Assembly: GCF_021611515.1 (NCBI RefSeq)
Contig: NZ_CP090960.1
Location: 2,772,001-2,836,000, forward strand
Direction: 5' to 3'
DNA from: Mariluticola halotolerans
GTDB taxonomy: Bacteria; Pseudomonadota; Alphaproteobacteria; Rhizobiales; Devosiaceae
DNA length: 64,000 nt
The stretch's first letter is position 1; every line of letters starts with the position of its first letter. The position numbers and the translations under genes are program-made. Below are positions 54,652 to 63,819 of the stretch, one piece after another. Below the pieces are notes generated by a model. The model was not told the DNA's origin. It saw nothing but the letters and a program-made list of their open reading frames with translations, and made no database searches.

Positions 54652-55470
54652 ATGTCGAGCATTTTTAGTGTTGAGGGTAAGGTTGCGGTTGTAACCGGAG
54701 GTTTGGGGCAATTGGGGCGCGGATTTGCGGCGTCACTGGCGCAAGCTGGTGCCAGGGTTGCCATTTTCAGCCGCCGGCCGGTGACGGCTGAGCAATTGCA
54801 GGAACTTTTTCCCGATTGCGCGGACAGCATCCGCGTTTACGAGGCCAGCGTGACCGACAAGGCAGCGCTGGAAGCGGCGACCGAGAAATTGTGTGCCGAC
54901 TGGGGTGCGCCCGATATTCTGGTCAATAATGCGGGCATCGATTCCAAGCCCGATGGGGCGGCGGACCAGAATGCGCCCTTTGAGGATTACCCGCAGAAAT
55001 ACTGGGATGACATTATTGATGTGAACCTGACCGGCGTCATGCTGTGCAGTCAGGTTATTGGCACCAAGATGGCAGAAGCCGGCCGGGGCAGCATTATTAA
55101 TGTGGGCTCGATCTATGGTCTGGTGTCGCCCAATCAGGCGCTTTATGCCTATCGCGAAGCGCGTGATGGTGTGCCTTTCGTCAAGGCTGTCTCTTATGCG
55201 GCGTCGAAATCCGGCCTGATCAACCTGACGCGTTATGTGGCGACCTACTGGGCCGAGAGGAATGTCCGGTGCAACCTGATCTCGTTTGGTGGGGTGAAAA
55301 CGGGCAGTTTCGACAAGGAATTTGTCGATAATTTCCTTGAGCGCGTGCCGATGCGCCGTCAGGCCGAGAAAGACGAGTATAACGGCGTTGTCCAGTTTCT
55401 CGCCTCCGAAGCCTCGTCTTACATGACCGGTTCCAATGTCGTCGTTGACGGCGGGTTTACGGCCTGGTGA
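54652..55470 (+). CDS. SDR family oxidoreductase
   Basis: This 272-residue NAD(P)-dependent dehydrogenase has VTGGLGQLGRGFAASL (nucleotide-binding TGxxxGxG), ILVNNAGI and the catalytic Tyr-Lys in SYAASKSGLI. The active-site Ser (NVGSIYG) is separated from Tyr by about 29 residues, more than the usual 12-13. This insert (residues about 160-175) is seen in a subset of sugar/sugar-acid SDRs. It is the first gene of an SDR-FadR-RraA operon, with overlapping junctions. It probably oxidises a hydroxy acid or polyol. Confidence 0.9.
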   Translation: MSSIFSVEGKVAVVTGGLGQLGRGFAASLAQAGARVAIFSRRPVTAEQLQELFPDCADSIRVYEASVTDKAALEAATEKLCADWGAPDILVNNAGIDSKPDGAADQNAPFEDYPQKYWDDIIDVNLTGVMLCSQVIGTKMAEAGRGSIINVGSIYGLVSPNQALYAYREARDGVPFVKAVSYAASKSGLINLTRYVATYWAERNVRCNLISFGGVKTGSFDKEFVDNFLERVPMRRQAEKDEYNGVVQFLASEASSYMTGSNVVVDGGFTAW

Positions 55471-56198
55471 TGGCTGTGGCCCCTGAACGCAACAAGCTTT
55501 ATGTCACGGTGGTTTCGGCCATTGAGGCAGAGATCTTGTCGGGCGTCCTGCAGGTCGGTGACAGGTTGCCTTCCGAGGCGGATCTGGCGCGCCGGTTTGG
55601 TGTGGGCACTCGTTCTGTGCGCGAGGGGCTGCAGATTCTCGAGACCAAAGGGCTGGTGCTGCGCCGGCATGGCGAGCGCGCCGAGGTGGTGCGTGAGGAT
55701 GTGGGGCAGTTCCTTGAATCCCTTGCCTCGACCGTTCATTCCCTTTTTGCCAAGGATACCGACTATCTCGTGCAGCTAATGGATGTGCGCCGCATGTTCG
55801 AGCTGGAGGCAGTTGGCCGGTTGGCGAGCGGGGAAGGGCAGTTGAGCGACGATGTTGATTCAGCGCTCAAGGCGATGGCCGAGGCCAGCGATTTCAGTGC
55901 CTATGCCAATGCGGATGCCGATTTTCACCGGGCGCTGGTGCAGTCGCTGGGCAATGAGATCATGGCGACGGTCTATGACAATCTTTACGGGCTGATCACC
56001 GAAGTCATCCGGCTGACCAGCCGGGTGCCAAGCAAGACAATGGCTGAGGGCGTTGCCGAGCATCATGCGATTTGCGCGGCAATCCGCAGTGGCGATGCAG
56101 AAGCCAGCCGTACGCTGTTGCGCGAGCATATCGACAATTCAACGACGTATCTTCAACAGGCGATCACCGCCGCAAAGCATCAAGGGCAGAACGCATAA
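55470..56198 (+). CDS. FadR-subfamily GntR transcriptional regulator
   Basis: This 242-residue regulator has the winged helix DRLPSEADLARRFGVGTRSVREGLQ (only part conserved per family) and an FCD domain with DADFHRALVQSLGNE and AEHHAICAAIRSGD, where His/Asp residues can hold a metal and an organic-acid ligand. The ATG shares one base with the SDR stop, and the next gene starts within its own stop, so the operon is tightly coupled. It likely senses the pathway substrate. Confidence 0.92.
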   Translation: MAVAPERNKLYVTVVSAIEAEILSGVLQVGDRLPSEADLARRFGVGTRSVREGLQILETKGLVLRRHGERAEVVREDVGQFLESLASTVHSLFAKDTDYLVQLMDVRRMFELEAVGRLASGEGQLSDDVDSALKAMAEASDFSAYANADADFHRALVQSLGNEIMATVYDNLYGLITEVIRLTSRVPSKTMAEGVAEHHAICAAIRSGDAEASRTLLREHIDNSTTYLQQAITAAKHQGQNA

Positions 56199-56875
56199 TG
56201 GCCGCATATGACTACAACAACACAGACTGGGCCGCGATTGCGCGCTTGTCGCAATGGTATTCGGGCGACATCCACGATGTGCTTGATGGCCGCGGCCCCT
56301 ATGGCTACCTCAAGGGGATCAGCCAGTTTGGTATTTTGAAGCCAGGGCAGGTGGTTTGCGGGCCGGTTTCGACCGTTCGCTATGAGCCCAGTACCCGCAC
56401 CGGCCAACCGCAAGACATTTATCATGGTGCGATTGATGCCGTGGTGAAGGGTGGCATTCTTCTGGTCGATTCGTCCTGCGCCGAGGGGTCGGGTACGGGT
56501 GAATTGATGACGAGCGGGGCGAAGACCAAGGGGGCCGCGGCCACTGTGGTCAACGGTACCGTGCGTGACCTCGCCGAGGTGCGCAAGCTGGACTATCCGC
56601 TATTTGCCAAGGGTATGAGCCCGGTCGGCGTATCGGGGCGTATGGAGCCTGCACATTACCAGGTCGATCTGGATATTGACGGCGTGAAAGTGCGTCCGGG
56701 CGATGTGATCTTTGCCGATGTGACCGGCGTGGTGGTGATCCCGCAGGATCTTGTCGGGGTGATTGCCGATGCAGCAGATGCGAACGGGATGGCGGAAGCG
56801 GCCTGTCGTGAGCGGATTCTTGCCGGTGAAAAGTTGCGTGACATCTGGCCGGTCGGCGGCGGCGGCCCGGTTTAA
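56198..56875 (+). CDS. RraA-like family protein (HMG aldolase/oxaloacetate decarboxylase type)
   Basis: This 225-residue protein belongs to the RraA/4-hydroxy-4-methyl-2-oxoglutarate aldolase family. DVLDGRGPYGYL is near the N-terminus and the active-site block is VNGTVRDLAEVRKLDYPLFA, where Arg and Asp bind pyruvate enolate and Mg2+. DVTGVVVIP is also conserved. Catalytic members cleave 2-oxo-4-hydroxy acids to pyruvate or decarboxylate oxaloacetate. The retained Arg-Asp favours an enzyme over an RNase E inhibitor. Start ATG 56198 overlaps the FadR stop. Confidence 0.88.
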   Translation: MAAYDYNNTDWAAIARLSQWYSGDIHDVLDGRGPYGYLKGISQFGILKPGQVVCGPVSTVRYEPSTRTGQPQDIYHGAIDAVVKGGILLVDSSCAEGSGTGELMTSGAKTKGAAATVVNGTVRDLAEVRKLDYPLFAKGMSPVGVSGRMEPAHYQVDLDIDGVKVRPGDVIFADVTGVVVIPQDLVGVIADAADANGMAEAACRERILAGEKLRDIWPVGGGGPV

Positions 56876-56885
56876 GCGAAAGAGG

Positions 56886-56907
56886 GGGCGGTCGGTTCAG
56901 GCCGCCC
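56886..56907 (+). terminator. Terminator after the RraA-like gene
   Basis: gggcggtc (56886-56893) and ggccgccc (56900-56907) form an 8-bp stem with one G-U pair, followed by TTT. It lies 11 bases after the stop. CACAATGTG, the core of the palindromes near tctC, occurs just beyond at 56912-56920. Confidence 0.65.
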
Positions 56908-56951
56908 TTTGCACAATGTGAAGCGATGCCAAGGGAGGGCAGATGCGCAAG

Positions 56952-57749
56952 CTAGCGAACATAGCCCAATCTTTGGGAAATCAGGTGCGCGTGGTAGGTG
57001 ACGACCTTGCTCAGTTCGTCGATTTCGGCGGGTGGCATCTGAAAGCTCGGCGCGCTGACGCTGATCGCGGCGAAGACATTGCCAGACTGATTGTAAATCG
57101 GTGCGCCGATGCAGCGCAGGCCCGGCTGATGCTCGCCATTATCGATGGCAAAGCCGCGCTCGCGGGTTGTCGCCAGTTCTTCAGCGAATTTTGCCGGATC
57201 GGTGATCGTGGTTTCCGTGAATTGTTTCAGGCCAGCATCTGTCACGCGCTGCACAATATCGGCGGGCTGGTATGCAAGGATCGCCTTGCCCACGCTGGTG
57301 CAATAGGCCGGAGAGTTCTCGACCATGGTGTTGGCCAGGTTGGGGTCGGCTTCGGTGCGCTGGATGATGACGGCGCGCAAACCATCGAATACCGCCAGAT
57401 GGACGGCGCGGTTGGTGAGCCGGTGCAACGATTCAACGATCGTGTGCCCCTCTCGGTGCAGTTCGAGATTGGCAAGGGCAATGCTTCCCAGTTCAAAAAG
57501 CTTCAGCCCAAGGCGATAGGAATCCCGTTCGCGGTCCTGCTCGATAAAGCCGACCTCGCGCATGGCGGTGAGCAGGCGGTGGGTGGTCGAGCGCGGATAT
57601 CCGGCCTCAGCGCAGATTTCGGCAAGGGTGAGCGAGCGCTGGTTGGCGGTGAAGCAATCGAGTATCCGCGCGATTTTGGTCAGCGATTTGATGCTGCCGT
57701 CGCTTTGCGCGGGTTTGCCCGGCTTGGTCGTCGCGGCGTTGTCGGTCAT
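56952..57749 (-). CDS. IclR-family transcriptional regulator
   Basis: This 265-residue regulator has the N-terminal winged helix (SLTLAEICAEAGYPRSTTHRLL, about residues 35-58) and the IclR effector domain with AYCTSVGKAILAY and GIAVSAPSF-like AISVSAPSF strands. Ligands are usually intermediates such as glyoxylate, pyruvate or aromatic acids. ATG 57749 gives the normal N-terminus. It is the last gene of the dapA-like/dhaK/dhaL/iclR cluster and probably binds the TTCCACAATGTGG palindromes in front of tctC. Confidence 0.93.
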   Translation of the reverse strand: MTDNAATTKPGKPAQSDGSIKSLTKIARILDCFTANQRSLTLAEICAEAGYPRSTTHRLLTAMREVGFIEQDRERDSYRLGLKLFELGSIALANLELHREGHTIVESLHRLTNRAVHLAVFDGLRAVIIQRTEADPNLANTMVENSPAYCTSVGKAILAYQPADIVQRVTDAGLKQFTETTITDPAKFAEELATTRERGFAIDNGEHQPGLRCIGAPIYNQSGNVFAAISVSAPSFQMPPAEIDELSKVVTYHAHLISQRLGYVR

Positions 57750-57832
57750 TCTGTGTGCCCCAGCGCTGTGTTTGGCCGATTGGCCTGGCCCGCAAAAGCC
57801 GTCCAATCCCTTAATTTATTTACCGGTTTACC

Positions 57833-58465
57833 TCAAGTGCGACCCGGAGATGCGCTGTGAACGCCCGTCACCGCCCAGACAAGTTCGGCGAGCGCGAGCA
57901 TGCCCGGATCATCGAGGCCGATGCTTTTTTCGGCAAACATGCGCGCACGGCCCATGGTGCAGGGGCGGTTGCGGAACGTGTTCAGAACATCTTCCATTGC
58001 GGCATTGGCGGCGGTGGCCATTTCGGCGGGGTCGCTGAGGCCGTCAAGGCTGATCGCCAGGGCATCGAGCGCGTCAATAATGGTTTTCGCGCCGAGTTCG
58101 GCTTTGCCGCGGGCCATGGCACCATCCCGGATAGTGCGCAGCATTGGGGCCAGCTGACCCCAGTCGAGCGCCTGCTGGTTCGCGCAGAATTTCCCCGATG
58201 TCATCATCGCGCCAATGATCAGCGTGCCAAGGCTCGATCCGGTCGCGCTGGTACCCGCTTTGGCCAGCGCGATGAACGCGGCACCCAGGTCCGGCGTTTC
58301 GGCAATATCGACAGCGGCGAAGGTGCCGATCAGTCGCGACAGCATGGTGCCGGTATCGCCGTCGCCCAGTTTGGCGTCGGCGGCGTTGAGCGTGTCACCG
58401 AGGGTCTGCATGCGGGTGTTGGCGCGGGTGAGCGCCGTTTGAAGGCTTTGTTGGGTAATTGCCAT
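57833..58465 (-). CDS. dhaL: Dihydroxyacetone kinase subunit L (nucleotide-binding)
   Basis: This 210-residue all-helical subunit binds ADP/ATP with two Mg2+: LNAADAKLGDGDTGTMLSRL carries the three Asp residues of the phosphate loop, and GTSATGSSLGTLIIGAM plus GRARMFAEKSIGLDDPG are family motifs. It pairs with DhaK four bases upstream. No PTS-type DhaM gene is nearby, so an ATP-dependent mode or a distant DhaM is needed. Confidence 0.93.
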   Translation of the reverse strand: MAITQQSLQTALTRANTRMQTLGDTLNAADAKLGDGDTGTMLSRLIGTFAAVDIAETPDLGAAFIALAKAGTSATGSSLGTLIIGAMMTSGKFCANQQALDWGQLAPMLRTIRDGAMARGKAELGAKTIIDALDALAISLDGLSDPAEMATAANAAMEDVLNTFRNRPCTMGRARMFAEKSIGLDDPGMLALAELVWAVTGVHSASPGRT

Positions 58466-58468
58466 GGT

Positions 58469-59464
58469 TCAGCCCACCCGCCAGAACGGACAATCAGCCG
58501 GCGCTGCAAGAAGCGCTTCAATTTCGTCATCGAGGAAACAAAGGCTGATCGAGGCACCGCCCATTTCCATCGAGGTCACATAAGGGCCAATGAGCGGGCG
58601 GACGATTTCCAGACCGGCGGTGTTGAGCTGTTCGGCGGCGCGCCGGTAAAGAATGAACAATTCCTCGAGTGGGGTGGCGCCGAGACTGTTGACCAGAATG
58701 GCCACGCGGCTGGTGTTGTCGGGGCGTTCGGTGAGCAGTTTGGCGATCATTTCGTCGACCAGCTCATCGGCGGGGCGGATCGGGCTGCGCCAGATGCCGG
58801 GTTCGCCATGGATGCCCATGCCCATTTCAATTTCGTTGTCGCCAATGATGAAATTGGGCTCGGCAGCGCCGGGGATCTGGCAGGAGGACAATGCCACGCC
58901 GATGGTGCGGGTGCGGTCGACGGTCTTTTGCGCGATTTCGGCAACGCTATCGAGATCCGCGCCGGCAGCCGCTTTGGCGCCTGCAGTTTTATAGGCAAAG
59001 ATCAACCCGGCGACACCGCGCCGCTTACTGGCTTCGTCTGGCCCCGCGCTGGCAATATCGTCGGTGCCAAGAACCGTGCGGGTTGTAATGCCCTCGAGTT
59101 CGGCGAACTCGCTGGCCATTTCAAAATTCATCCGGTCGCCACCGTAATTGCCGAACAGGCAAAGAACGCCTGCGCCGCCATTGGCCGCGGCGATCGCGTC
59201 CTGACAGGAATTGATGGTGGGGCCTTCAAAGACATTGCCGATGGCGCAGGCATCAAGCAGCGCCTCGCCGACATAGCCGGTGAACAGCGGCAAATGGCCG
59301 GAGCCACCACCGGAAACCAGCCCGACCTTGCCCTTTGGCATGTCGCTGCTGCGGGCGATGGTGCGCTGGTCTTCACCGACGCGCTTCAGTCCGGGATGGG
59401 CCAGGCAGAGGCCGTCGAGCATTTCCTCGACATAATTGGCGGGGTCATTGATCAGTTTTTTGAT
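58469..59464 (-). CDS. dhaK: Dihydroxyacetone kinase subunit K-like, apparent ATC start codon
   Basis: DhaK binds dihydroxyacetone (or a similar ketose) covalently. Counting from ATC 59464 as residue 1, His57 (GGGSGH), Asp110 (NYGGD) and His219 (MGMGIHGEPG) match the E. coli substrate residues with a constant offset of one. The N-terminal KKLINDPANYVEEM before the first in-frame ATG (59422) is conserved in the family, and GGGAGG lies six bases before ATC. No in-frame ATG/GTG/TTG fits. The loop after His57 reads LPLF where E. coli has EPMH, so the substrate may differ from dihydroxyacetone. The start codon claim is inference. Confidence 0.88.
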   Translation of the reverse strand: MKKLINDPANYVEEMLDGLCLAHPGLKRVGEDQRTIARSSDMPKGKVGLVSGGGSGHLPLFTGYVGEALLDACAIGNVFEGPTINSCQDAIAAANGGAGVLCLFGNYGGDRMNFEMASEFAELEGITTRTVLGTDDIASAGPDEASKRRGVAGLIFAYKTAGAKAAAGADLDSVAEIAQKTVDRTRTIGVALSSCQIPGAAEPNFIIGDNEIEMGMGIHGEPGIWRSPIRPADELVDEMIAKLLTERPDNTSRVAILVNSLGATPLEELFILYRRAAEQLNTAGLEIVRPLIGPYVTSMEMGGASISLCFLDDEIEALLAAPADCPFWRVG

Positions 59465-59539
59465 GGCAGCCTCCCATTGGCCGATTGTGACAGAGGCCGG
59501 CCGCAGACATTGCGACCGGCGAATTTGCTGGCCGTGGCC

Positions 59540-60466
59540 TTAGCGGGCGCGAATGTCGGTCAGTTCGAGCACTGGGCCGAGCGCGGCATCGATCTGCTTT
59601 TTCTGCTCTTCGGTCACGCGCTCCATGGGGGCACGCGGCTGGAACAGGGGCAGACCCTGGCGCGATTGCACATATTTGACGCAAGCGGGCAGGTTGTCGT
59701 GCCGCATGGAATTCCACAAGGCGTTGAGCTTGAAGTGAATGTCCTTGGCCGTTTCATGATCACCGCGTTGCACAGCCTCATAGAGATTGACGGTAACACC
59801 GGGCACAGCGCAGGTCAGCGCGCTGATGGCGCCGTGGGCACCAAGCGCGAAGCCGGGATAGAGCAAGGCATCAATGCCGCTCAGAACCAGATTTTCCGGC
59901 TTGGCACGCAGCAGGAGATCGGAGACGGATTTGAGATCGCCCGAGGACTGCTTCATGCCAACGACGCCAGGTACGGCTTCCATAATGGCAAGCATCGCGT
60001 CAGCGCTGAGATAATTCCAGGGAATGACATTGTAGATAAGGATCGGCACCTGGGTTGCTTCCCAGATGGCACGGAAGTGTTCGATCGTGGCTTCCAGGTC
60101 CGGCTTGAACAGATAGTGGACGGGGGTTACCTGAAGCGCGGCGATTTTCATGTCGCCCAGTGCCTTGACGCGCTCAATTGCTTCGCGCGTGGACTGGACA
60201 ATCAGGCCGGCGATAAACGGCACGCGGCCATCGGTTGCTTCGTAAGCCTCGGTCATCGCGTCGACAAATTCGGACGAGGACAGGGTGTGACCCTCGCCGG
60301 TCGAGCCGCCAACAACAACAGCGCGTACACCGCTGTCGATCATAAAGTCGACCTGCGCTTTCAAAGCGCCTTTGACCAGGTTCCCCTCGTCATCGAATGG
60401 CATCGACAGCGGGGGCAGGATGCCAGTGAGCGTTTCACGCACGGACTGGGCAATAGGGTTCGACAT
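59540..60466 (-). CDS. DapA-family (class I aldolase) lyase/synthase
   Basis: This 308-residue TIM-barrel enzyme has Schiff-base Lys172 in VVGMKQSSG, catalytic Tyr145 in ILIYNVIPWN and the GGSTGEGHTL carboxylate-binding loop. The family includes dihydrodipicolinate synthase, N-acetylneuraminate lyase and 2-keto-3-deoxy sugar-acid aldolases, all handling pyruvate. Genomic context with DhaKL and a carboxylate transporter points to a catabolic aldolase and not to lysine synthesis. It starts a minus-strand operon, divergent from tctC. AAAGGAAAGAA precedes ATG 60466. Confidence 0.92.
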   Translation of the reverse strand: MSNPIAQSVRETLTGILPPLSMPFDDEGNLVKGALKAQVDFMIDSGVRAVVVGGSTGEGHTLSSSEFVDAMTEAYEATDGRVPFIAGLIVQSTREAIERVKALGDMKIAALQVTPVHYLFKPDLEATIEHFRAIWEATQVPILIYNVIPWNYLSADAMLAIMEAVPGVVGMKQSSGDLKSVSDLLLRAKPENLVLSGIDALLYPGFALGAHGAISALTCAVPGVTVNLYEAVQRGDHETAKDIHFKLNALWNSMRHDNLPACVKYVQSRQGLPLFQPRAPMERVTEEQKKQIDAALGPVLELTDIRAR

Positions 60467-60571
60467 TTCTTTCCTCCAAAGGCAGGTGCGTCTGACAAGA
60501 GACGTAGACCTGCACGTTCAATCAGCCAATGGCAATGTCGTGCTGGGCAGTCCAGTTCGCGAAATAGCCAA

Positions 60572-60586
60572 TTCCATAATGTGGGA
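60572..60586. promoter_or_regulatory. Palindrome TTCCATAATGTGGGA, candidate IclR operator (left)
   Basis: Near-perfect dyad CCATA-A-TGTGG inside the dapA-like/tctC intergenic region, 106 bases before the dapA-like start. It differs at one core base from the right copy at 60715. Confidence 0.55.
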
Positions 60587-60714
60587 CATGATCCCGATTT
60601 GTGTTTACTGCCAGAAAGCCGTGACTGTCAACATATCTGCAATGTATATGGACAAAAAGTGCATTTAGATGCGATTGCAACGAACCTGTTGCGTCAAAAG
60701 CACGTGCATGTTAG

Positions 60715-60729
60715 TTCCACAATGTGGCA
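60715..60729. promoter_or_regulatory. Palindrome TTCCACAATGTGGCA, candidate IclR operator (right)
   Basis: Perfect dyad CCACA-A-TGTGG, 143 bases from the left copy and 71 before the tctC start. IclR proteins bind such 13-15 base dyads, often in pairs. The iclR gene is in the same locus. The rest of the 333-base gap 60467-60799 holds no gene. Confidence 0.6.
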
Positions 60730-60799
60730 TAACTTCTCGCGATCTGGTTTGATCGCATCATCTGCTGGCAAGCCTGCCAGCTCTTAAGGGAGGACTTTG

Positions 60800-61768
60800 A
60801 TGAAAGTCGTAAAGAATCTCGCGCTCGCGTTCGCCGCGACACTTATGGTCTCCGGCACTGCCATGGCGCAGTATCCGGAACGTCCGATCGAGTTGATCAT
60901 TCCTTGGTCAGCCGGTGGTGGCACGGATGCGACCGGTCGCATTATTGCGACCATGCTCGAGGAAAAGCTTGGGCAGCCGATTACCATCAATAACCGCACT
61001 GGCGGCGGCGGTATTGTCGGCCATGAGGCCATCAAGGAAGCCAATCCGGATGGTTATACACTCGGCATCGTCACAACTGAGCTGTCGATGTTCAAGCCGG
61101 TTGGTTCGGCTGAAATGACTTATGAAGATTACACGCTGATCGGTCTTTATAATGCTGACCCGTCCGCAATCTTTGTCAGTGCCGATTCCAAGTTCCAGTC
61201 GATGCAGGAACTGGCGGAAGCGATCAAGGCGGATCCCGCAGCGCTTAAAGCCAGCGGTGCCAGCTTTGGCGGTTTGAACCATTTGTCATGGGTCAGCCTG
61301 GTCCACCTGCTGGGTGCACCTGCTGACAAGGCTTTCTGGGTGCCCACCGATGGTGCTGTGCCCTCGCTTCAGCTTCTGGCCTCGGGCGCAATCGATGTTG
61401 CCGTGTCCCAGTTCCCCGAAGCGCAGTCGCTGGTTGACGCCGGTGAAATCCGTCCGCTCGGTTACCTGGGCAACGAAGCCAATCCGAAGCAGCCTGATGT
61501 GCCGCCGATCACCGACGCACTTGGCCTTGAGTTCGCAATTGCGGGCTGGCGCGGTCTTGGCGGACCGAAAGGCATGCCTGACGACGTGGTCGCCACGCTC
61601 ACCGAAGCGCTCGACGAGATCGTGAACAGCGCGGAATTTGCTGAATTCATGGACAGCCGCAACTATGGCGTTGTCTGGGAAGGCGGCAGCGATTTTGAAG
61701 AATACCTGCGCAAGCGCGGGGAAGCCTTCGACGCTGCAATCAGCTCAGCCGGTATCACGGCGCAATAA
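60800..61768 (+). CDS. tctC: Tripartite tricarboxylate transporter substrate-binding protein (TctC)
   Basis: This 322-residue periplasmic receptor has a signal peptide ending TAMAQ, followed by YPERPIELIIPWSAGGGTDA, the Bug/TctC family signature that grips a carboxylate with two waters. NNRTGGGGIVGHEAIKEA and WRGLGGPKGMPDD are also typical. GGGAGGA precedes ATG 60800. Highest expression in the operon is expected because a terminator-like hairpin separates it from tctB. Confidence 0.94.
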   Translation: MKVVKNLALAFAATLMVSGTAMAQYPERPIELIIPWSAGGGTDATGRIIATMLEEKLGQPITINNRTGGGGIVGHEAIKEANPDGYTLGIVTTELSMFKPVGSAEMTYEDYTLIGLYNADPSAIFVSADSKFQSMQELAEAIKADPAALKASGASFGGLNHLSWVSLVHLLGAPADKAFWVPTDGAVPSLQLLASGAIDVAVSQFPEAQSLVDAGEIRPLGYLGNEANPKQPDVPPITDALGLEFAIAGWRGLGGPKGMPDDVVATLTEALDEIVNSAEFAEFMDSRNYGVVWEGGSDFEEYLRKRGEAFDAAISSAGITAQ

Positions 61769-61779
61769 TATCTCTTGCT

Positions 61780-61806
61780 GCCCCCGGTCGTTTGGCGATC
61801 GGGGGC
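61780..61806 (+). terminator. Intercistronic hairpin between tctC and tctB
   Basis: gcccccggtcg (61780-61790) pairs with cgatcgggggc (61796-61806) over 11 bp with one G-U, followed by GGTTTTT. In TctC operons such partial terminators favour excess binding protein over permease. Confidence 0.75.
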
Positions 61807-61830
61807 GGTTTTTCGTGAAGGAGTGGATAT

Positions 61831-62319
61831 ATGCGATCACGGAATTTTCCGGACATGGCTTTGGGACTGGTGTTTCTGGCACTGGGCGTTCTCATTCTCA
61901 TCCAGGCGCAAGGTATCCGTTCCGTGCCCGGGCTGCCGGTCGGCCCTGGGCTGTTTCCCACACTGACTGGTGGCGCGATTGCCGTGTTTGCTGTGGTTCT
62001 TGTGATACAGAGCTGGTTCGTATCCGAAGATGATGTGACGCTTATTCCTGAGGGGGCGGAAGCCGCCGATGGATCGGAACCGAGCGGCCTGTTCACACCC
62101 TTCGTGTTTGGCATTCTTGGCGCGACGCTGGCGGCCCTGCTGGTGATGCCGCTCATCGGATTTTTGGCGACCGCGCTGCTTTATACGTTTTCAATCGTAC
62201 TTTTGGGTGGCGGGCGATTGCGGGCGGCGCTTGTTTTCAGCCCCATTGTCTCGCTGACGATCTATGCGCTATTTGCATTCGGGTTCAGGGTGCCGTTGCC
62301 CCAGGGAATTTGGGGTTAG
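61831..62319 (+). CDS. tctB: Tripartite tricarboxylate transporter small membrane subunit (TctB)
   Basis: This 162-residue protein has four TM segments and the typical TctB start (ALGLVFLALGVLILIQAQGI; GLPVGPGLFPTLTGG). A charged loop separates TM2 and TM3. AAGGAG lies seven bases before ATG 61831. Its stop is three bases before tctA. Confidence 0.9.
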   Translation: MRSRNFPDMALGLVFLALGVLILIQAQGIRSVPGLPVGPGLFPTLTGGAIAVFAVVLVIQSWFVSEDDVTLIPEGAEAADGSEPSGLFTPFVFGILGATLAALLVMPLIGFLATALLYTFSIVLLGGGRLRAALVFSPIVSLTIYALFAFGFRVPLPQGIWG

Positions 62320-62322
62320 ATC

Positions 62323-63819
62323 ATGGACGCATTTCTTCTGGCTATGGGGCTGGTCTTTAATGTCGAGACCCTGCTTGTTATTCTCGCGGCATCGATTTTT
62401 GGGCTGTTCGTCGGTGCCTTGCCCGGCCTGACAGCAACCATGGCCACAGCGCTTTTGGTGCCGGTCACATTCTATATGGCGCCAATTCCCGCTATTGCAG
62501 CGATCATTTCGTGCACCGCGATGGCGATCACAGCGGGTGATTTGCCCGGTGCATTGCTGCGCATTCCCGGTACGCCGGCTTCTGCCGCCTATGTTGAAGA
62601 TTCCTATGGCATGGCGAAACAGGGCAAGGCGGGGCTTGCCATTGGTATTGGCGTTATCGGCTCGATGCTCGGCGGATTGTTCGGTTTTGTATTTCTGTTG
62701 TTCACCGCACCCGCGCTGGCAAAATTTGCGCTCAGCTTTTCCAGCTTTGAGTATTTCTGGCTGGCGGTTCTGGGGCTGAGCTGTGCGGCGCTGATCTCAA
62801 CCGGTGGTATGGCCAAGGGCGCCTTGTCGCTGTTGCTGGGGCTGTTTATTGCCCAGATCGGTGTAGACCCGCTCATGGGCGCGCAACGCTTTACCTTCGG
62901 GTTCAGCGAGCTGTCGGGTGGTATCAGTTTCATTCCTGCAATGATCGGCATGTTCGCGCTGGCCGAGATCATGCGGGCGGGCCGCAACGGCACGAAAGCT
63001 GTCGCGCAAGCGAATGTCGGCAATCCGTTCAAGGGCACGCTGAAAGTGCTCTGGCAATATCGCAAGAACCATTTGCGCGGCTCAATGATTGGCAGCCTGT
63101 TGGGTGCATTGCCTGGCGTGGGCGGAGATCTCGCCGCCTGGGTGACCTATTCGCTGGCCAAGCGGACGTCCAAGACGCCAGAAAAATTCGGTACAGGTCA
63201 TCCTGAGGGGCTGGTTGAGGCGAGTGCGACCAATAACGCGGCTCTGAGCACATCCTGGATTCCGGCCATGGTGTTCGGTATTCCCGGTGATGCAGTCACG
63301 GCGATTGCCGTTGGCGTTCTGGTGATGAAAGGGCTGGATCCCGGACCGCAATTGCTGACCGTCAACCCGCAGAACTTTTATGCGGTGCTGTTGGTGTTCG
63401 TGGTTGCCAATATTTTGATGCTGCCCCTGGGATATGTGGCAGCGCGGTCGGCCCGCTGGATTTTCGAAGTGCCGCGCGCCCTGCTGAATGCGGCCATCCT
63501 GCTATTTTGTCTGGTCGGGTCGTTTTCGATCAACAACACGATGTTTGGTGTTGGCGTCATGCTGGCGCTGGGCATTATCGCCTATGTTCTTGAATCGCGG
63601 CGGTTTGCGATTGCACCGATCATTCTGGGCATTGTGCTTGGACCATTGGTCGAGGGGAATTTTACCACGTCGATGATTATCACAAGTGGCAATTTCCTTG
63701 GCTTTTTCGAGCGGCCCATTGCCGCTGTTCTGGGTATCGCGACCATCATCATCTGGGGCACGGCGATCGGGGGCACAATCCTGCGCGCCTATAAGGGACG
63801 ACAGTTGCGCCTGGCTTAA
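62323..63819 (+). CDS. tctA: Tripartite tricarboxylate transporter large membrane subunit (TctA)
   Basis: This 498-residue protein has about 12 TM helices and translocates the carboxylate. Duplicated signatures are FVGALPGLTATMATALLVPV and GSLLGALPGVGGDLAAWVTY, with HPEGLVEASATNNAALSTSW and GIPGDAVTAIAVGVLVMKGL. Length is normal. A strong terminator follows. Confidence 0.95.
   Translation: MDAFLLAMGLVFNVETLLVILAASIFGLFVGALPGLTATMATALLVPVTFYMAPIPAIAAIISCTAMAITAGDLPGALLRIPGTPASAAYVEDSYGMAKQGKAGLAIGIGVIGSMLGGLFGFVFLLFTAPALAKFALSFSSFEYFWLAVLGLSCAALISTGGMAKGALSLLLGLFIAQIGVDPLMGAQRFTFGFSELSGGISFIPAMIGMFALAEIMRAGRNGTKAVAQANVGNPFKGTLKVLWQYRKNHLRGSMIGSLLGALPGVGGDLAAWVTYSLAKRTSKTPEKFGTGHPEGLVEASATNNAALSTSWIPAMVFGIPGDAVTAIAVGVLVMKGLDPGPQLLTVNPQNFYAVLLVFVVANILMLPLGYVAARSARWIFEVPRALLNAAILLFCLVGSFSINNTMFGVGVMLALGIIAYVLESRRFAIAPIILGIVLGPLVEGNFTTSMIITSGNFLGFFERPIAAVLGIATIIIWGTAIGGTILRAYKGRQLRLA

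Follow-up and report, generated by a model that had tools for sequence, protein, structure and literature searches.

A probable ATC start codon in a dhaK-like gene of Mariluticola halotolerans and its changing counterparts among Devosiaceae relatives

Introduction

Which codon begins the dhaK-like gene of Mariluticola halotolerans? The gene lies on the minus strand of a 64,000-nucleotide stretch of contig NZ_CP090960.1 (assembly GCF_021611515.1, positions 2,772,001 to 2,836,000), hereafter the window, in whose numbering all coordinates are given. Read from the sequence alone, its 5' end had been placed at an ATC by a first-pass annotation. Attenuating non-AUG starts are a known phenomenon, and outside infC they have rarely been demonstrated; a literature search with coverage lying mostly outside subscription journals found, among the titles and abstracts listed, none describing a non-AUG dhaK start. 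The reading that we favor, at a probability of roughly 0.77, is that the ATC at 59464 is a real non-AUG start of the dhaK-like gene, which would tune dhaK below the upstream dapA-like gene.

Genomes and loci compared

Relatives were sought in 84,980 genomes, each representing a different species, using six peptide patterns as seed. Within the family of the window genome, 33 of 136 genomes matched at an E-value of 1e-90 or better. Full-length matches of at least about 78% identity among these 136 genomes, minus the frameshifted G112, constitute the 21-genome set, that is, the window genome and 20 Devosiaceae orthologues at 78–85% DhaK identity. A 53-row tree set adds 32 further rows; it merges 14 duplicate sequences and leaves out L049, L056, L066, L067, 37 more distant loci (L069–L105), L008–L025, L128 and L129, as well as matches without a locus (second copies in G124 and G134; G088, G082 and G148).

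The dhaK-like gene and its operon

The gene occupies 58469..59464 (minus strand) as an open frame and, read from the ATC, comprises 331 codons plus a stop at 58471-58469. It matches Pfam Dak1 (E 5.5e-114; 380.7 bits, above the gathering score of 31.4), and its 355.5 bits against the NCBIfam dhaK1 equivalog TIGR02363 fall below the cut-off of 406.25, for which reason it is assigned to the Dak1 family and not to dihydroxyacetone kinase proper. Its Dak2 partner, the adjoining dhaL-like gene (57833..58465, minus strand), has its ATG start 3 nt beyond the dhaK stop; the product passes Pfam Dak2 (E 2.2e-22; 80.2 bits against 27) and stays below the cut-off of the NCBIfam DhaL equivalog (75.4 against 138.3). 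The substrate of the operon may be a sugar acid or polyol rather than dihydroxyacetone.

Upstream of dhaK lies a dapA-like gene of the DHDPS/NAL aldolase family (59540..60466, minus strand; Pfam DHDPS E 2.8e-55), which has an ATG with GGAGG. The conserved run ends in an IclR-type regulator ORF (56952..57806 in its longest form, minus strand), named after the Devosia neptuniae copy, which is annotated as IclR family, and kept in its place in 21/21 genomes. The order dapA-dhaK-dhaL-iclR, together with a divergent TctC gene, is found in all 21. DhaL is less conserved (58–72% to the 20 relatives) than DapA (81–88%) and DhaK (78–85%).

The wider neighborhood (54652-63819) is catabolic, comprising an SDR dehydrogenase, GntR- and IclR-type regulators, an RraA-like protein, the DHDPS-family aldolase, the Dak1/Dak2 kinase and a tripartite tricarboxylate-type transporter; names beyond DHDPS, Dak1 and Dak2 were assigned by reading and from the Devosia neptuniae annotation, that of the SDR dehydrogenase by reading only. 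On the plus strand, a stop-free frame of 990 codons (57815-60787) runs antisense to dapA, dhaK and dhaL, and probably arises as a by-product of codon bias, the genome being GC-rich.

Sequence context of the ATC codon

The ATC (59462..59464, minus strand) follows a Shine-Dalgarno sequence, GGGAGG (59470..59475, minus strand), with a 5-nt spacer of sequence CTGCC, and thus begins on the sixth base after the motif, where the first-pass annotation had placed it. That annotation also held that no GTG or TTG would fit and that the first in-frame ATG comes 14 codons later, and both statements are confirmed. Between the ATC and the dapA stop, the dhaK frame in the window contains no ATG, GTG or TTG. 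Its first in-frame stop on the 5' side, at -78, is the TAA that ends the dapA-like gene itself (59542-59540), after which the dhaK frame is continuous with the dapA frame; the near-cognates in this interval are ATC (-21), CTG (-42) and ATT (-60). On the 3' side, the first in-frame ATG is codon 15 (Met15; 59420..59422, minus strand), which opens a 317-aa ORF, the choice of gene callers limited to ATG, GTG and TTG. An out-of-frame ATG (59475..59477, minus strand), which overlaps the Shine-Dalgarno sequence, opens a 10-codon ORF read from the sequence and ending in TGA at 59447-59445. Local folding around the dhaK start showed nothing distinctive (z -1.54). As a candidate non-AUG start, the window dhaK therefore has a non-AUG codon at the homologous position, a Shine-Dalgarno sequence and no canonical in-frame alternative upstream.

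The protein read from the ATC was compared with E. coli DhaK (chain 4lrx_A). Residue 1 of the window DhaK, encoded by the ATC, aligns with residue 1 (Met) of the E. coli chain, and the GGGSGH, GNYGGD and GIHG motifs align to the corresponding stretches. Numbered from the ATC, the motif residues that we take to be catalytic are H57, D110 and H219; in E. coli DhaK the active-site numbers are presumably 56, 109 and 218. The earlier claim that this numbering reproduces the active-site positions of the family is accordingly right to within one residue and not exactly, the offset arising because the window DhaK has one extra residue near position 27.

Start codons among relatives

In the best 80 of 161 relatives, the codon aligned with the ATC is ATG in 71, TTG in 4, CTG in 2, GTG in 2 and GTC in 1. 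The GTC, at L067, was rejected as an example; an in-frame ATG lies two codons upstream. One of the two CTG codons in this tally belongs to L049 (Devosia sp. A8/3-2, CP104975.1), whose dapA, dhaK and iclR matches are frameshifted pieces. This locus, which is the same place as L128, probably comes from an error-prone assembly and was dropped from the counts and trees that follow. L049 has an out-of-frame ATG 13 nt upstream of its dhaK CTG, like the window.

Across the 21 Devosiaceae orthologues, the aligned dhaK start is ATG in 12, TTG in 5, CTG in 3 and ATC in 1; none is GTG. Only one genome, represented by one assembly, has ATC, and its relatives show CTG and TTG. The CTG start occurs in three separately deposited species genomes, a pattern that base miscalls would not explain, and the gene table of a plasmid collection likewise begins dhaK of Devosia neptuniae (NZ_CP104964.1) at CTG. 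The 32 additional rows of the tree set, which lie outside this clade, have ATG in 29, TTG in 2 and GTG in 1, so that non-ATG starts number 9/21 within the clade versus 3/32 outside it (Fisher p 0.007, relatedness ignored).

The flanking genes of the same genomes served as controls. Both dapA and dhaL start with ATG in 21/21 genomes, which confines the departure from ATG to dhaK among the three. With relatedness ignored, non-ATG starts are found in 9/21 dhaK genes versus 0/42 controls (dapA plus dhaL; Fisher p 1.2e-5), and starts outside ATG, GTG and TTG in 4/21 versus 0/42 (Fisher p 0.010, relatedness again ignored). GGAGG with a 5-nt spacer precedes all nine non-ATG dhaK genes of the clade, the window included; GGAGG is kept in 9 of the 12 ATG genes, a proportion not significantly lower (Fisher p 0.23).

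An unrooted tree of DapA, DhaK and DhaL from the 21 genomes splits them 7 versus 14 (support 100/99). The group of seven consists of the window (ATC), L106, L108 and L115 (CTG), and L107, L123 and L004 (TTG); it includes no ATG, and four of its seven starts are neither ATG, GTG nor TTG. The other 14 genomes have 12 ATG and 2 TTG. A quick tree of DapA only repeats the 7/14 split (SH-aLRT 99), and the base of the 21 is unresolved in a tree of DhaK only. Midpoint rooting places the root of this unrooted operon tree within the group of seven, and the window and L004 are flagged as long branches, so the seven non-ATG genomes may form a grade instead of a clade. The first-pass annotation had proposed comparing close relatives for an ATG at this site; in that comparison the nearest seven genomes, window included, all use ATC, CTG or TTG, with the Shine-Dalgarno sequence and spacing intact.

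Six of the seven group genes, including all three with CTG, have no in-frame ATG, GTG or TTG upstream before the first stop, the exception being L004, with a TTG at -10 and an ATG at -17 codons in frame upstream of its TTG. We also considered whether dhaK is extended upstream in frame, or reached by reading through the dapA stop, and rejected this as a feature of the whole group, the dhaK frame being closed 15 codons upstream in L108 and L115.

Alternative explanations for the 5' end

Given the non-ATG relatives, a start at Met15 and a base-call error both become less likely. Of the alternatives, the Met15 start fares best, and we still regard it as unlikely. Translation would then begin at 59422 and yield a 317-aa protein without KKLINDPANYVEE. 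Met15 is the first in-frame ATG of dhaK and is present in 7/7 group genomes; the Pfam Dak1 domain, which starts at residue 17, would be retained whole in a protein begun at Met15, and in the window a GAGG stands 2 nt before this codon. A 2-nt Shine-Dalgarno spacing is short, however, and the GAGG is missing in five of the seven, only the window and L106 having it, 2 nt away. Codon 15 is ACA in L112, in alignment KKLIND falls at the E. coli DhaK N-terminus, and the strong Shine-Dalgarno sequence sits at the ATC. Furthermore, the ratio of nonsynonymous to synonymous codon differences within the group is 0.39 in codons 2–14, 0.43 in codons 15–40 and 0.43 in codons 41–330, and the residues private to the window number 0 in codons 2–14 and 15 in the rest of DhaK. 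Codons 2–14 are thus as constrained as the remainder of dhaK and free of private window residues, which argues against the Met15 start.

A base-call or assembly error, under which the true codon would be ATG and dhaK an ordinary gene, is improbable. One substitution turns ATC into ATG, the codon found in 29/32 rows outside the clade and in 12/21 genomes inside it, but in 0/6 of the other genomes of the window's own group. TTG and CTG each differ from ATC at two positions, so a single miscall would leave the window as the lone ATG in the group of seven; an error would have to combine two adjacent miscalls, or else be one miscall of an ATG for which the group offers no other example. The assembly, moreover, consists of 2 contigs, is 99.97% complete with 0 contamination, and has open neighboring operon genes.

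It is quite improbable that the weak start reflects relaxed selection or decay of dhaK in the window genome. Weak starts do recur among the nearest relatives, yet the window gene keeps a full-length open frame, its Shine-Dalgarno sequence and the operon order, and synonymous codon differences exceed nonsynonymous ones against each of the 20 relatives (97–135 against 49–70).

Initiation at the out-of-frame ATG at 59477, 13 nt upstream of the ATC, followed by entry into the dhaK frame through a +1 frameshift or slippage of the transcript on AAAAAA, where the A6 run would let tRNA-Lys re-pair, is scarcely credible, as this ATG overlaps the Shine-Dalgarno sequence, lacks a motif of this kind immediately before it and is absent from the CTG-start loci L106, L108 and L115, and A6 is a short run for slippage.

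A covarying hairpin between dapA and dhaK

The junction between the dapA-like gene and dhaK contains an intercistronic hairpin with a 10-bp stem and a 5-nt loop (59496..59520, minus strand). Local folding gave a strong stem in 21/21 junctions, with best energies of -19 to -29 kcal/mol, although the best local stem in L123, L118, L106 and L107 is longer than the shared one. Across the nine aligned stem pairs, 98.4% of cells are paired, and 7/9 pairs have changes on both sides. None of 500 shuffles reached a covariation as high, and sliding the partner by 1 to 3 columns reduced pairing to 33–52%. The hairpin could stabilize the upstream message or separate the expression of dapA and dhaK; in the mechanism that we propose, it would probably be a second element separating the expression of the operon's two parts.

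A model for attenuated initiation

Two of the three AUC bases pair with the initiator anticodon. In the favored reading, in which the ATC is the start, the GGGAGG 5 nt upstream would position the 30S subunit, and the initiator tRNA (fMet) would start on the near-cognate AUC at reduced efficiency. Because the nearest operons have ATG at dhaK in 0/7 cases while the flanking dapA and dhaL genes all have ATG, the dhaK start would appear to be specifically kept weak. The amount of DhaK would then most likely be lowered relative to the upstream aldolase, and DhaL might be lowered too by coupling, given the 3 nt between the dhaK stop and its ATG.

Several known systems suggest what such a start may do. 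E. coli infC begins with ATT and its Streptomyces counterpart with ATC (PMC5472188), and S. aureus infC begins with AUA (PMC13009471); non-AUG starts are described as repressed by IF3 (PMC5472188). The dhaK start would resemble that of infC as a near-cognate AU[U/C/A] codon limiting translation through IF3, whereas infC is autoregulated by its own product and dhaK encodes an enzyme subunit without a known role in initiation. By this comparison we infer that the dhaK start may be sensitive to IF3.

The infC gene of the window genome (L130, C1:2040533-2041030, minus strand) has an apparent ATT start (IRRPMRP...) preceded by AAGGA at a distance of 8 nt; no canonical in-frame codon lies upstream before a stop, and an in-frame ATG follows four codons later. 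This start was assigned by reading and is not certain. In view of the apparent ATT start of infC, near-cognate initiation is probably in use in the window genome.

In Streptomyces, sigR starts with GTC in 32/34 species and GTT in 2, with a highly conserved RBS (PMC5472188). As proposed for dhaK, a non-AUG start there holds a gene below its operon partner, and the codon turns over among relatives. The two differ in that sigR is a regulator gene with GTC, whereas dhaK has ATC, CTG or TTG, and in that introduced stop codons, Western blots and IF3 mutants demonstrated the sigR case. The S. aureus genes cvfC1 (AUU) and ccpN (AUA) have conserved non-AUG starts with strong Shine-Dalgarno sequences and lower reporter yields (PMC13009471); unlike dhaK, they were characterized by ribosome profiling and reporters, carry extended Shine-Dalgarno motifs, and code for a repressor and for a small protein, not for a kinase subunit. 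Additionally, lacI with its GTG and further carbohydrate regulators of enterobacteria with non-ATG starts indicate that the choice of start tunes carbohydrate-utilization loci (PMC11445065), although lacI has its GTG on a repressor and dhaK has ATC, CTG or TTG on a kinase subunit. By analogy with such cases, and with the E. coli data from Hecht et al. as cited in PMC12350097, dhaK is probably translated poorly relative to its ATG neighbors. A low level of the kinase would fit both the confinement of the trait to dhaK and the published data on other non-AUG starts.

Selection or tolerance

Belinky et al. counted, among 61,358 ancestral AUG starts, switches to GUG in 363, UUG in 113, CUG in 2 and AUU in 1 (PMC5622118). 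AUC is not among the switches quoted here, and the 21 genomes depart from these counts in having no GTG and in having CTG and ATC. From few independent events, this contrast gives a hint that the weakest codons are preferred at dhaK. For substitutions around the start in alphaproteobacteria, the same paper reports a difference between start codons that is not significant (PMC5622118). On the operon tree, at least 5 codon changes are required among the 21 genomes, or 2 between ATG and non-ATG, and few independent events therefore bear on selection; weak dhaK starts could be tolerated rather than selected.

Going beyond the reading of the ATC as a start, we tentatively suggest, at somewhat below even odds, that in this one group of operons selection keeps dhaK off ATG while the codon wanders among TTG, CTG and ATC, making dhaK a translation-limited inner step of the operon that is possibly responsive to IF3 and paired with the hairpin.

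Implications

Gene callers restricted to ATG, GTG and TTG would cut 14 residues from the window DhaK, 13 of them conserved coding sequence. What is new here is that, across a group of operons, the start of an enzyme gene varies between TTG, CTG and ATC without being ATG in any of them. Because the seven genomes form a series with a fixed Shine-Dalgarno sequence and spacing and with two ATG controls, selection of weak starts on metabolic enzymes becomes directly testable in them.
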